Positions 3,460 to 57,775 of a DNA stretch of 59,442 nucleotides are shown piece after piece (the stretch's first letter is position 1; every line of letters starts with the position of its first letter). Below the pieces are notes generated by a model. The model was not told the origin of the DNA. It worked only from the letters and a program-made list of their open reading frames with translations, and made no database searches. Made by a program: the position numbers and the translations under genes. Source of the DNA: Betaproteobacteria bacterium (GTDB lineage Bacteria > Pseudomonadota > Gammaproteobacteria > Burkholderiales > Rhodocyclaceae); contig VGHJ01000010.1 in the NCBI GenBank assembly GCA_016868295.1, positions 1-59,442 on the forward strand, read 5' to 3'.

Positions 3460-4360
3460 GAAGAAGGCTCCCGGCGACGGCCAGCGCCAGCCACAGCAGC
3501 GTGCCGCGCTCGACGAGCGAAACGGCGCGCGCGATGTCGGCCGCGGCGGCGGCGCGGCCCGCGCCCAGCGGCGGGCGCGCTTCGGGCGCGCCGTGGTAGA
3601 TCGCCGTACCGCCGAGACTGACTTTCAGCGCGCCGGCGCCGGCGGCCATCACCGGCCCGGCGTTCGGGCTCGCCCACGCGCCCGCCTGCGCGCGCCAGCA
3701 CGCGAGCGCCGTGCGCGTGTGGCCGAGCAGCGCGTAGGTGAGCGCCGTCAGCCGCGCCGGCACGAAGTTGAGCGCATCGTCGAGGTGTGCCGCCGCCCAG
3801 CCGAAGTAAATCCGCCGCGCATCGCGATATCCCCACATCGCATCCAGCGTGTTGGCGAGACGATACAGCAGCGCGCCGGCACCGCCGGCGACGCAGAACC
3901 AGAACAGCGCGCCGAAAACGGCGTCGTTGCCGTTTTCCAGCACCGACTCCACTGCCGCCTTCGCCACGCCTTCCTCGTCGAGCGCACCGGTGTCGCGCGA
4001 GACGATGCGGCCGACCGCTGCGCGCGCCTCGTCGAGCCGCCCGGCCGTCAGCGGCGCGGCAACGGCGCGCGCATGCTCGGCGAGGCTGCGTCCGCCGAGG
4101 GCGACGCCCAGCAGCAGCGCGTCGAGCACGGGATGGGCGAACCAAGCCGCGATCGCCGTCGGCGGCAGCACCAGCAGCGCCCAGGCGGCGAGGCCGCGCA
4201 GGCGGTTGCCCGTTGCGTGCCCCGGCGCGCCGCGTCGCAGCCGCCCTTCGGCCGCATGCGCCAGCCGGCCGAAGCCGGCCAGCGGATGCCAACGGCGCGG
4301 CTCCCCGAGCAGGCGGTCGAGCGCCACGCCGGCGAGCAGGCTGACGAGGAAGGGCGGCAT
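3452..4360 (-). CDS. cbiB: Adenosylcobinamide-phosphate synthase
   Basis: Integral membrane enzyme that attaches aminopropanol phosphate to adenosylcobyric acid. The ATG at 4360 gives 302 residues beginning [20 protein letters not shown], the usual CbiB start with its RLLGEP and HPLAGFG motifs. Further landmarks are the [19 protein letters not shown] stretch, [13 protein letters not shown] and the [11 protein letters not shown] helix. Four to five hydrophobic segments are visible. It lies five bases downstream of bluB and overlaps cobD by eight. Its 3' part carries one sense copy of the dispersed AAAGTCAGTC/ACGGCG motif (3602-3625), encoding the KVSLGGTA stretch. Confidence 0.94.
3602..3625 (-). 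repeat. Dispersed 24-base motif, copy 1 (exact)
   Basis: AAAGTCAGTC, spacer TCGGCGGT, ACGGCG. Sense within cbiB, codon phase 1. Confidence 0.85.
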
Positions 4361-4365
4361 CGGCC

Positions 4366-5016
4366 TTACGTCCGCGCCGCAGCGGCGGCGCGCGCGACTG
4401 CCGCGCGCAGGTCGCGGTCGGCGGCATCGGCCGGCGCGCCCTGCCAGCGCTCGAAATGCAGCAACTGCTCCAGCGGCAGGCGCGGCAGCCAGCCCGCCGC
4501 CTCCAGCTCCGGCCGCTCGTGGAAGTGGCTGACGTAGCCGAGGCACAGATAAGCGACCGGCATGATGTGGTCGGGAATGCCGAGGGCGGCGCGCAGCGCG
4601 TTCTGGTGCAGGATGCTGACCCAGCCGACGCCGAGGTTCTCGGCGCGCGCGGCGAGCCACAGGTTCTGCACGGCGCACACCGCGCTGTAGACGTCCATGA
4701 TGCGGATGTGCGTGCGGCCGACCACCACCGGGCCGTGGCGACTGCGGTCGCAGGTGACGCACAGGTTGAGCGGCGCTTCGAGGATGCCTTCGAGCTTGAG
4801 GCCGCGGTAGGTCTCGCGCTTGTCGCCCTCGAACATCAGCGCCGCCTCGGCGTGGGCGGCGAGGAAGTCGGCATGCACGCGGGCGAGCACCTCGTCCGGC
4901 ACCGCATCGGGCAGGAATTCGCCGCGCACGTCGCGGCGGGTGTGGATGGCGCGATAGACGGCGGCGCGCTCGGCCTCGGCGAAGCGGGGATCGGTCTGGC
5001 GAACGGGTTCGGCCAT
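4366..5016 (-). CDS. bluB: 5,6-Dimethylbenzimidazole synthase with an internal deletion
   Basis: BluB is a nitroreductase-fold flavoenzyme that cannibalises reduced FMN to make the lower ligand of B12. Clear family landmarks are [11 protein letters not shown] (residues 27-37, with the catalytic Asp), [33 protein letters not shown] and GVGWVSI with its catalytic Ser. Homologues I remember have, between VLAR and the helix that reads RVxAxFxxA here, about 30 residues including a HHAPSVGFMQPW-type loop near the flavin. Here VLAR (residue 45, near base 4881) runs directly into VHADFLAAH. The frame is kept, giving 216 residues. The protein may therefore be inactive, or the sequence may be misassembled at this point. 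It is followed by cbiB after five bases. Confidence 0.85.
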
Positions 5017-6305
5017 GTCGGCACCTCGGAGAAAAGACCGGCGGCGGCCGGCGGGTTGGCGGGAAAGTAGAAATGCACGTAGCTGGCGGTAAGGCGCTTG
5101 CGGCGATACACCGCCTCGCCCGCGCGTCCGTCCGGCGTCGCCGCCCGCGCCAGCGGCGCCAGCGGCGTCTCGCTCTTCGAGTAGTGGAAGGTGTGGCCGC
5201 GCAGCGTGCCTTCGGGCAGCACGGCTTCCTGCAAGCCGAGGGCCGCCAGGCGCGGCTGCATGGCCACTCGTCCGGGCAGCAGGCCCGCCTCGGCGTGGCT
5301 GCGGCCCTCGCCGTCAGTGAGCGTCTCGAACAGCGCCATCATGCCGCCGCACTCGGCCAGCACGGGCTTGCCGGCCTCGACGTGCGCGGTGAGCGACTGC
5401 CACAGACTGCGGTTTTCGGCGAGGCGCGCGGCGTGCAGTTCGGGATAGCCGCCCGGCAGCCAGACGGCATCGCAGGCCGGCAGCGTGCGGTCCGCGAACG
5501 GCGAGAAAAAGACGAGCCGCGCACCCAACTCCTCGAGGCATTCGAGATTGGCCGGGTAGAGGAAGCAGAACGCCGCATCGCGGGCGACGGCTATCGTCTT
5601 GCCGGACAGCAGTGGGGGAAAAGTCAGTCCCGGCGGCACGGCGAAGGATACCGGCGCCGGCAGGGCGGCGGCGGACGTGGCAGCGAGGAGATCGGCGATG
5701 CGCCCGATGCGCTGCGCCAGCCCGCCGATTTCCGCCGCCGGCAAGAGGCCCAGATGGCGCTCCGGCAGGGCGGCCTCGGCCTCGCGCGGCAGGTGTCCGT
5801 ACCAGACGATGTCCGCCGGCAGGCTCTCGCGCAGCAGGCGCGCGTGGCGCTCGCTGCCGACGCGGTTGGCCAGCACGCAGTCCAGCCGCGTGCCGGGCCG
5901 GTAGTGCCTGAGGCCGTGGGCGATGGCGCCGAAGCTCTGCGCCATGGCCGCGCCGTCGATGACGGCGAGGACGGGTAGGCCGAGGCGCGCGGCGATGTCG
6001 GCGCTCGACGGCTCGCCGTCGTGGAGGCCCATGACGCCCTCGACGAGAATGAGATCGGCCTCCGCCGCCGCGCGGGCGAGACGCCGGCGTGCATCCTCCT
6101 CGCCGCACATCCACAGGTCGAGGGTATGGCAGGGCGCGCCGCTGGCGACGGCGTGGATCTGCGGATCGAGGAAATCCGGCCCGCACTTGAAGACGCGCAC
6201 ACGACGGCCCTGGCGCGCATGCAGCTGCGCCAGCGCGGCGGTGACGGTGGTCTTGCCCTGCCCCGAGGCGGGGGCGGCAACGAGCAGCGCCGGGCAGGTA
6301 GCCAT
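4836..6305 (-). CDS. cobB: Cobyrinic acid a,c-diamide synthase with extended tail
   Basis: Glutamine-dependent amidase of the cobalamin pathway (CobB in the aerobic and CbiA in the anaerobic scheme). The start shares one base with the cobO stop (TGATG). The nucleotide loop [10 protein letters not shown] lies at residues 11-20, then [20 protein letters not shown], and a C-terminal glutaminase domain with WLPGGYPE and [12 protein letters not shown]. The normal family ending, [14 protein letters not shown], comes near residue 420. No stop follows: the frame continues about 60 residues through the first 181 bases of bluB in another frame. The tail is proline- and arginine-rich, looks non-native, and could result from loss of a stop in the bluB deletion. 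The core is convincing. Confidence 0.9.
5620..5643 (+). repeat. Dispersed 24-base motif, copy 2 (exact)
   Basis: AAAGTCAGTC, spacer CCGGCGGC, ACGGCG. Antisense within cobB. Confidence 0.85.
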
Positions 6306-57015: not shown

Positions 57016-57060
57016 GTGCGGTTCCGTGGCGCCCAGATTGAAAATCGGGCGGTGGCGCGG

Positions 57061-57069
57061 TGATATACT
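57061..57069 (+). promoter_or_regulatory. Extended -10 promoter element before yggS
   Basis: TGATATACT fits the extended -10 form TGnTATACT, with a weak TTGAAA 20 bases further upstream (57038-57043). The yggS start is 23 bases downstream. Confidence 0.5.
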
Positions 57070-57091
57070 TGCCCAGATTTTTCAGGGCATT

Positions 57092-57775
57092 ATGACAACA
57101 ATTTCCGCCAACTTGCAAGCTGTCAGGGCGCGCATCGCCAAAGCGGCGCGAGAGGCGGGAAGGCAGCCGGAGGAAATCGCCCTGCTCGCCGTGAGCAAGA
57201 CCGTCTCGCCGGAGCGGATCCTCGATGCGACGACGGCCGGGCAGCGGGCCTTCGGCGAGAATTATGCGCAGGAGGGCGCGGCGAAGATCGCCGCGCTGGC
57301 GGATCTCGGTCTGGAATGGCATTTCATCGGGCCATTGCAAAGCAACAAGACCCGTCCGGTGGCCGAGCAGTTCGACTGGGTGCACAGCATCGAGCGGTTC
57401 AAGGTGGCCGAGCGCCTGGCGGCCGCGCGCGGCGCAGACCGGCCGCCCCTGCAAGTGTGCGTGCAGGTCAATGTCAGCGGAGAGGCGAGCAAGAGCGGAG
57501 TCAGTCCCCACGACACGGCGACCCTGGCGCGCGCCGTGGCCGCCCTGCCCCGGCTAAAGCTGCGCGGGCTGATGGCGATCCCGGAACCGACCGCCGATAT
57601 CGCCCTGGCGCGCCGCCGCTTCGCCACGCTGCGGGCGCTGCGCGACGGCCTGAACGCCGAGGGGCTCGGGCTGGACACCCTGTCGATGGGCATGTCGCAC
57701 GACCTGGAGGCGGCGATACTCGAAGGGGCGACGCTCGTACGCGTCGGCACGGCAATCTTCGGAGAGAGGCACTAG
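57092..57775 (+). CDS. yggS: PLP homeostasis protein
   Basis: 227-residue PLPBP/YggS-family protein. The PLP lysine is in LLAVSKTVSPERI near residue 36, then RAFGENYAQEGAAKI, EWHFIGPLQSNKTRPVAE, VNVSGEASKSG and the phosphate-binding LSMGMSHDLEAAI. It binds PLP without known catalysis and buffers the cofactor. It is followed two bases later by proC, a conserved pairing. A sense copy of the 24-base motif lies in it (57497-57520), encoding GVSPHDTATLA. Confidence 0.95.
   Translation: MTTISANLQAVRARIAKAAREAGRQPEEIALLAVSKTVSPERILDATTAGQRAFGENYAQEGAAKIAALADLGLEWHFIGPLQSNKTRPVAEQFDWVHSIERFKVAERLAAARGADRPPLQVCVQVNVSGEASKSGVSPHDTATLARAVAALPRLKLRGLMAIPEPTADIALARRRFATLRALRDGLNAEGLGLDTLSMGMSHDLEAAILEGATLVRVGTAIFGERH
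57497..57520 (+). repeat. Dispersed 24-base motif, copy 14 (two mismatches)
   Basis: GGAGTCAGTC, spacer CCCACGAC, ACGGCG. Sense within yggS, codon phase 1. Confidence 0.7.

Follow-up and report, generated by a model that had tools for sequence, protein, structure and literature searches.

A dispersed bipartite motif

We report here a 24-base bipartite motif, AAAGTCAGTC-N8-ACGGCG, with 16 fixed bases, that is dispersed through a stretch of betaproteobacterial DNA 59,442 nucleotides long (the window), and that is probably, judging from its sequence and distribution, a signal for the uptake of self-DNA of the type represented by DNA uptake sequences (DUS) and uptake signal sequences (USS). The source assembly (G000; 2.67 Mb, 118 contigs, 99% complete), in which the window makes up contig 10, belongs to the genus (g1) that includes Candidatus Desulfobacillus denitrificans and that NCBI leaves unplaced in the Betaproteobacteria; the family label Rhodocyclaceae is taken from the names of matching records. 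The initial annotation had listed 14 copies, and all 14 positions and strands do carry the motif, eight of them exactly, two with one mismatch and four with two.

The exact copies lie in varied surroundings. Those at 3602–3625 (minus strand) and 49656–49679 (minus) fall in open reading frames (ORFs) without a Pfam match (3018–4427 and 48898–50025, both minus), and that at 10585–10608 (plus) is possibly intergenic, going by the ORF list alone. Two are antisense to their genes, at 5620–5643 (plus) in an ORF for a CobB/CobQ-type glutamine amidotransferase (4836–6647, minus) and at 25513–25536 (plus) in one for an enoyl-CoA hydratase (25410–26297, minus), and the copy at 20340–20363 (minus) is sense in an ORF for an AMP-binding enzyme (18961–21459, minus). 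The remaining two are at 30078–30101 (plus), close to the 3’ end of the MeaB ORF (29154–30164, plus), and at 39835–39858 (plus) in ilvD (38153–40012, plus), where the motif encodes residues 561–569. The single-mismatch copies are at 16144–16167 (plus), 38 bases beyond a cobalamin riboswitch (15891–16106, minus), and at 41525–41548 (plus) in a DUF255/thioredoxin-like ORF (40523–42565, plus). Two of the copies with two mismatches, at 37163–37186 and 37766–37789 (both plus), share an ORF without a Pfam match (37027–38133, plus); the others are at 51457–51480 (plus), antisense in an ORF for a ferredoxin-type oxidoreductase (51307–52335, minus), and at 57497–57520 (plus) in an ORF at 57316–58590 (plus). 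Conservation of protein sequence was said not to account for such copies, and it is indeed ruled out by their occurrence in both orientations and in several codon phases. A fifteenth copy at 59270–59293 (plus), absent from the earlier list, has three mismatches, a level at which chance matches are frequent. The window also contains a second cobalamin riboswitch (8382–8595, minus) and a match to 6S RNA (16787–16974, plus) that is barely above the Rfam gathering score (49.9 versus 46.4 bits).

A chance origin of these copies is unlikely, as had been estimated, since dinucleotide shuffles of the window yield a mean of 0.51 and a maximum of three copies in 100 shuffles when up to three mismatches are allowed. 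The bias reported within the spacer is real in the window, with C at the fifth base in 14 of 14 copies and A or G at the fourth in 13 of 14, but it is not absolute; among 274 copies in a complete genome of the same genus (G010), 83% have C at the fifth base and 75% have A or G at the fourth.

Copy number and anatomy

The whole of G000 contains 213 exact copies, 104 forward and 109 reverse, and none of the reversed pattern used as a control. This corresponds to one exact copy per 12.6 kb, or one per 6.8 kb for the 391 copies with up to one mismatch, and the window is somewhat richer than its genome, its 59 kb holding eight exact copies, or one per 7.4 kb. Candidatus Desulfobacillus denitrificans, whose genome is complete (G010; AP021857.1; 3,145,360 bp), has 354 exact copies. 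Perfect copies outnumber those with a single mismatch throughout the whole genomes compared, with 213 and 178 respectively in G000, 354 and 158 in G010, and 279 and 198 in G073. Nor are the copies confined to the window, to one repeat family or to an assembly artefact, as 13 of the 16 genomes of the genus carry 200–512 copies with up to one mismatch; the remaining three have 3, 23 and 53.

The finer structure of the motif was determined in 80 stretches of 20 kb each, taken at even intervals along AP021857 (1.6 Mb; the G010 sample). The numbers of copies with zero to five mismatches against the 16 fixed bases are 191, 83, 43, 28, 138 and 877, compared with 0, 0.1, 0.35, 10, 103 and 825 for permuted motifs. 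The counts of exact copies are far above both the permuted-motif and the reversed-pattern controls, and these together with the window shuffles lead us to reject chance. Among the 83 copies with a single mismatch, 32 differ at one weak position, the C that closes the first half. Taken together, the copies give the consensus AAAGTCAGTC CCNGCRGS ACGGCG, and the base just 5’ of it is A in 65% of copies, with a weak G at -3 and -4 and little information beyond. In addition to the motif, CCCTCTCCC-type words are strongly over-represented in stretches of G010 and of G111, another genome of the genus, and perhaps form a recurrent terminator stem.

Placement along the chromosome

Genes in the G010 sample were called with a purpose-made simple caller (1564 genes, 89% coding). 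The 191 exact copies include 115 wholly within genes (54 sense and 61 antisense), 56 wholly between genes and 20 at gene edges. With up to one mismatch, the density is 0.12 per kb in genes and 0.53 per kb between them, and among the gaps it is 1.97 per kb where the flanking genes converge, 0.51 per kb where they are in tandem, and 0.23 per kb where they diverge (nine copies), although this last class would be inflated by genes overlooked in foreign DNA. Within genes the copies are spread roughly evenly, apart from some crowding in the first tenth (24 of 151).

Relative to replication, 96 exact copies are in the leading and 95 in the lagging orientation, and copy counts show no trend from origin to terminus in this sample (Spearman 0.04, p 0.75). 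Copies with up to one mismatch are spaced a little more evenly than at random (dispersion 0.74, p 0.04), and the evenness is not significant for exact copies (dispersion 0.93, p 0.34). There are no regular inverted pairs, because only two of 195 neighbour distances are below 200 bp. Copy number climbs with GC content across the 80 stretches (rho 0.45, p 3e-5), with fewer copies in low-GC stretches, and the mean is 2.36 copies in the 14 stretches with the most atypical composition versus 3.65. One low-GC stretch (57%), at G010 511122–531121 (L152), has little host-like coding signal and is perhaps a foreign island; its single motif copy, at 18945 of the stretch, lies past the AT-rich part.

Fate of individual sites

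We compared 42 distinct sites of G000 with up to one mismatch, drawn from the window and from 30 further loci (L001–L030), with the G010 sample. Eighteen could be aligned across the motif. At 15 of these, G010 matches all 16 fixed bases, the window sites at 20340, 25513 and 49656 being among them; another differs at three bases, and the other two contain gaps. The flanking DNA is 77–92% identical and the spacers vary, and near 85% identity unconstrained sequences would be expected to retain all 16 bases in about 7% of cases (0.85 to the 16th power). At window position 16144, the motif in G010 is shifted by a local indel.

The initial annotation had remarked that the motif in ilvD displaces the residues expected at that position. 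Residues 561–569 align without gaps to two solved dehydratases, and the motif-encoded residues have therefore been substituted rather than inserted. Protein-level comparison was tried for 87 coding sites, and no gap is present in the motif-encoded segment in any of 11 alignments with two motif-poor genomes of the genus, G111 and G113, compared with 2.9% of control windows. The motif-encoded segment is less well conserved than its flanks, with identities of 0.54 versus 0.77 for G111 and G113, and 0.43 versus 0.70 for other genera. At most of the sites compared, the motif seems to have originated without change in length.

Carrier genera and dialects

A scan of named bacterial genomes found at least 95 stretches with the motif. 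Among the 80 matches listed, all but three are from Rhodocyclaceae, Rhodocyclales, Sulfuritalea, Candidatus Desulfobacillus or unplaced Betaproteobacteria, and the other three are a marine actinobacterium (one copy), a Pirellulales bin (one copy) and a 5-kb ‘Bacteroidia’ contig (three copies) that we take to be misbinned. Within 395 genomes of the family, the form found in the window (the g1 form), with up to one mismatch, is at high numbers in the window’s genus, weaker in genus g66 (at most 153 copies) and in genome G023 (48), and present too in a small number of g19 and g9 genomes.

Other genera have their own spellings. G008 (g9) has AAAGTCGGTGCTGGCRRGACGGCG, read from about 100 matches listed, and G161 (g66) has AAAGTCAGTCGTNGYGGTACGCCG, read from about 25 matches listed, with 436 and 419 copies respectively that differ from the g1 form at no more than two bases. 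The spelling AAAGTCGGCGCTGGCGRGACGGCG, which we refer to as the GGCG dialect, is found in the sampled stretches of G221 (g19), G126 (g64) and G038 (g38), and predominates in G001 (g2), where there are only five copies. In these small samples, perfect and single-mismatch copies of the GGCG dialect number 8 and 2 in G221, 11 and 6 in G038, 3 and 5 in G126, and 0 and 5 in G001. There are at least four dialects, and the spelling has been read in eight of the nine carrier genera, g46 being excepted. G023 combines the g1 form with some copies of the GGCG form, in stretches picked around g1-form copies.

With a degenerate pattern and up to one mismatch, nine of the 68 genera represented in the 395 genomes carry the motif (g1, g2, g9, g19, g23, g38, g46, g64 and g66). 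Of 80 genomes sampled from these nine, 60 have 100–742 copies and 20 have 2–98, and no genome of the remaining 59 genera exceeds 19, compared with up to 24 for the reversed control. Low counts within carrier genera (for example 21 in G251, 6 in G190, 5 in G234 and 3 in G084) are in part due to mismatch with the pattern, as G019 and G080 (g19) have 12 and 6 copies with the degenerate pattern and 119 and 236 with a more generic one. The generic pattern was also applied to 300 genomes of the order, of which nine belong to the family; G000, G019, G080 and G046 are high among these nine, and in the 50 other families (291 genomes) more than six copies are found only in G475 and G413, the control reaching up to six. 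G475 (family f38) has 20 copies of several dialects with up to one mismatch, which could be imported DNA or contamination, and G413 (family f20) has ten near-identical AAAGTCAGTCCCCGCAAAACTGCG copies, spacer included, that represent a different copied repeat, similar to the motif’s first half. Among the matches listed for G018, G301 and G369 of g18, a genus otherwise near the control, there are a few copies of the AAAGTCGGCGCTGGCGRGACGGCG type, either relics or imports.

Erosion within the carrier genus

The genome G111, which is 98% complete and belongs to the window’s genus, has only three copies with up to one mismatch. In 151 kb of it there are three copies with two mismatches and six with three, against 0 and 1.0 for the permuted motif, and none of ten distinct orthologous sites (14 comparisons) is intact; the counterpart of window site 49656 has four mismatches. 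No replacement dialect was seen in the samples of G111 and G113, where the words found de novo are terminator-like and codon-type repeats.

In a midpoint-rooted GyrB tree of 25 genomes, G111 groups with G105, G000, G101, G073 and G102 (97/95), and because it is nested inside the carrier genus, it most likely lost the signal secondarily. G113 (61 copies with the degenerate pattern) is sister to G010 (574 copies; 100/97), and secondary loss is less certain for it than for G111, the G113 assembly being 85% complete. The remaining carriers fall into two clades, g46, g23 and g19 (joined by the motif-poor g29) and g38, g9, g64 and g2, which are together at 86/85. G055, which lacks the motif, falls within the genus clade on a long branch, and we do not trust this placement. 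The carrier label requires four changes on the tree, compared with 7.0 in shuffles (4 of 500 as low), with G111, G113 and G251 scored as carriers; several gains or losses are therefore implied. Genus g66 was left out of the tree because its GyrB is in pieces; the gyrB match at G161:C158:11804-13610 is in four, reflecting either assembly errors or a broken gene.

Competence and pilus genes

Searches for competence and pilus genes covered ComEC, DprA and the pilin family PF16732 (the ComP_DUS family, PilE-like). ComEC is present in 15 of the 16 genomes of the window’s genus, many of which are incomplete, DprA in 14, and a PF16732 pilin in 12. A prepilin-signal scan of the 12 PF16732 loci found three consecutive pilin-like ORFs at ten of them and two in G073 and G111, with PilE-, FimT- and PilV-like labels assigned by eye. 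FimT reportedly has a role in DNA uptake in some bacteria. The minor-pilin operon is kept in both G111 and G113.

What the motif is likely to do

The comparisons above bear out the suggestion that the motif is an uptake signal, through its excess of perfect copies, strand balance, uniform spread, tolerance within genes, conservation at orthologous sites, dialects and erosion. It has the features of the DUS/USS class: hundreds of copies above chance with perfect copies outnumbering those with single mismatches, no bias in orientation, a spread over the whole chromosome with greater density between genes, dialects that follow lineages within one family, and genomes that encode ComEC, DprA and PF16732 pilins. 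We infer that uptake drives the accumulation of copies and that the receptor is a pilin. A protein at the cell surface, most likely a minor type IV pilin, would bind the 24-bp sequence in either orientation, leading to preferential import of DNA of the cell’s own kind for recombination. Copies would arise mostly by point mutation, and would spread and persist through molecular drive, owing to the more frequent import of DNA that bears the motif. Copies would decay on loss of uptake or of its specificity, and a shift in specificity would bring a shift in dialect.

Several observations weigh against an uptake signal. The density of one exact copy per 9–13 kb is several times lower than the approximately one per kb of DUS and USS, and DprA was not found in the carriers G073 (99% complete) and G112 (77%). 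PF16732 had to be rejected as a marker of the motif, being found in 359 of the 395 family genomes with or without it, and loss of competence genes was rejected as the cause of erosion in G111; because ComEC, DprA and the minor-pilin operon are all kept, no gene loss that we see explains it. When the proteins are compared with those of other genera, the segment encoded by the motif is gapped in 3 of 13 alignments, compared with 1.7% of control windows. Avoidance of promoters is not strict, as divergent gaps are the sparsest among gaps yet denser than genes. The trend with GC may in part reflect easier origin of a GC-rich motif in GC-rich DNA, and copy number is not significantly rank-correlated with compositional atypicality (-0.18, p 0.12). 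The richest of the 80 stretches, with eight copies in 13 kb, contains accessory genes; it (L218, 1–15711; G010 from 3106044) encodes aconitase, an AbiEi/AbiEii toxin-antitoxin, a weak CopG-like match, an IS21-type transposase pair and a Fic protein, and could be accessory DNA that is exchanged among kin. Viral contigs also carry some copies, with the g1 form in 11 and the GGCG form in at least 120 stretches. The 90 viral loci have 0.58 copies per 10 kb beyond the recruiting copy, compared with 0.9–2.2 per 10 kb in host samples, a weak comparison given the host flanks of proviruses and viruses whose hosts are not known.

There are other roles to consider for a dispersed motif. It could be bound by an abundant protein of the nucleoid or of chromosome organisation whose target sequence diverged between genera, and its dispersal on both strands, its tolerance in genes and its long bipartite form fit such a site; we nonetheless think this unlikely, because there is neither a gradient from origin to terminus nor a strand bias along the replichores, and the chromosome-organising role proposed in the initial annotation is left unsupported. 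That perfect copies are the commonest is moreover unusual for intracellular sites, according to the available part of PMC1626085, and the turnover of dialects and the erosion inside one genus also argue against a nucleoid protein. FtsK-orienting polar sequences (KOPS), Chi, matS, SlmA and parS sites are marked by strand polarity or by zoning between origin and terminus; matS-, SlmA- and parS-type motifs were rejected on the absence of such zoning, and KOPS and Chi on the absence of polar orientation along the replichores. A Chi-like hotspot of recombination or repair, acting on recombination instead of uptake, would likewise spread through biased conversion, and we consider it very improbable, as Chi and KOPS are strand-polar relative to replication, known Chi sites are far shorter than 24 bp, and the motif is evenly divided between leading and lagging orientations.

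A role as a regulatory site or component of a terminator draws on the enrichment in convergent gaps and on the greater density of every gap class than of genes. It has very little to recommend it, in that divergent gaps are the sparsest gap class (on which ground a promoter-type regulator was rejected, though these gaps are not free of the motif), 115 of 191 exact copies lie wholly inside genes in both senses, and regular inverted pairs are absent. Slightly less probable still is a mini mobile element or repetitive extragenic palindromic (REP)-type repeat copied through the genome. The strong consensus does resemble that of a young repeat, and the gapped alignments with other genera are in keeping with insertion, but there is no conserved sequence past the 24-mer except the weak bases at -1, -3 and -4, on which a repeat or miniature inverted-repeat transposable element (MITE) was rejected; the spacer is variable, gaps are absent relative to G111 and G113, and orthologous positions are retained while the spacer changes.

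Comparison with known uptake signals

In open-licence literature, for which result lists were partial, we found no published report of an uptake signal in Rhodocyclaceae. Pasteurellaceae and Neisseriaceae are given as the sole families known to have uptake sequences in the available part of PMC12616744, and the part of the Candidatus Desulfobacillus denitrificans description available in PMC8402940 does not mention competence, uptake, pili or repeats. We lean, with rather less assurance than for uptake itself, towards a third independent system of self-DNA recognition in natural transformation, in which a 24-bp two-part signal of Rhodocyclaceae, with at least four dialects in nine genera, would be recognised by a protein of the pilus other than ComP and ComN and would keep exchange within kin in groundwater and wastewater. 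A third family with dialects, loss and a mixed-dialect genome (among 395 genomes) would offer an independent test of molecular drive versus species barriers. If the reading is correct, it would also provide new dialect-receptor pairs from which to learn what makes a pilin sequence-specific, and environmental bacteria such as the denitrifier Candidatus Desulfobacillus of anammox reactors would exchange DNA preferentially with their own kind.

The motif is unlike the signals of both established families in sequence, as the initial annotation had noted, and neither the DUS 12-mer nor the USS core matches its consensus. A DUS proper (a 12-mer with a CTG core, read by ComP) was rejected, as the motif is a different 24-mer and PF16732 does not track it; the reverse complement of DUS shares the words TCAG and ACGGC with the motif, probably by chance. 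A USS proper, with a AAGTGCGGT or ACAAGCGGT core, was rejected because the consensus differs. KOPS, Chi and matS are likewise dispersed short motifs, differing in the strand polarity or origin-terminus zoning that is not seen here. DUS are contiguous over 12 bp, occur about once per kb and have a known receptor in ComP, whereas the motif is bipartite over 24 bp, has one exact copy per 9–13 kb and has a putative receptor only. It nonetheless resembles the DUS of Neisseriaceae in its hundreds or more of near-perfect copies, its lineage-following dialects with a conserved inner core, and its relatives without the signal. PMC3630211, in the part available, describes DUS dialects in Neisseriaceae and two of them in the genome of S. 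muelleri, to which G023 is the counterpart here. USS differ in having a 9-bp core with AT-rich flanking segments, a higher density and gamma-proteobacterial hosts, but they share the arrangement of a core plus spaced further elements, the existence of two lineage types, and the predominance of perfect over mismatched copies, a trait that the available text of PMC1626085 gives as common to USS and DUS and unlike regulatory sites. The same text describes weaker and rarer USS in H. ducreyi after a probable loss of competence, and the weakened, rarer copies of G111 present a similar picture.

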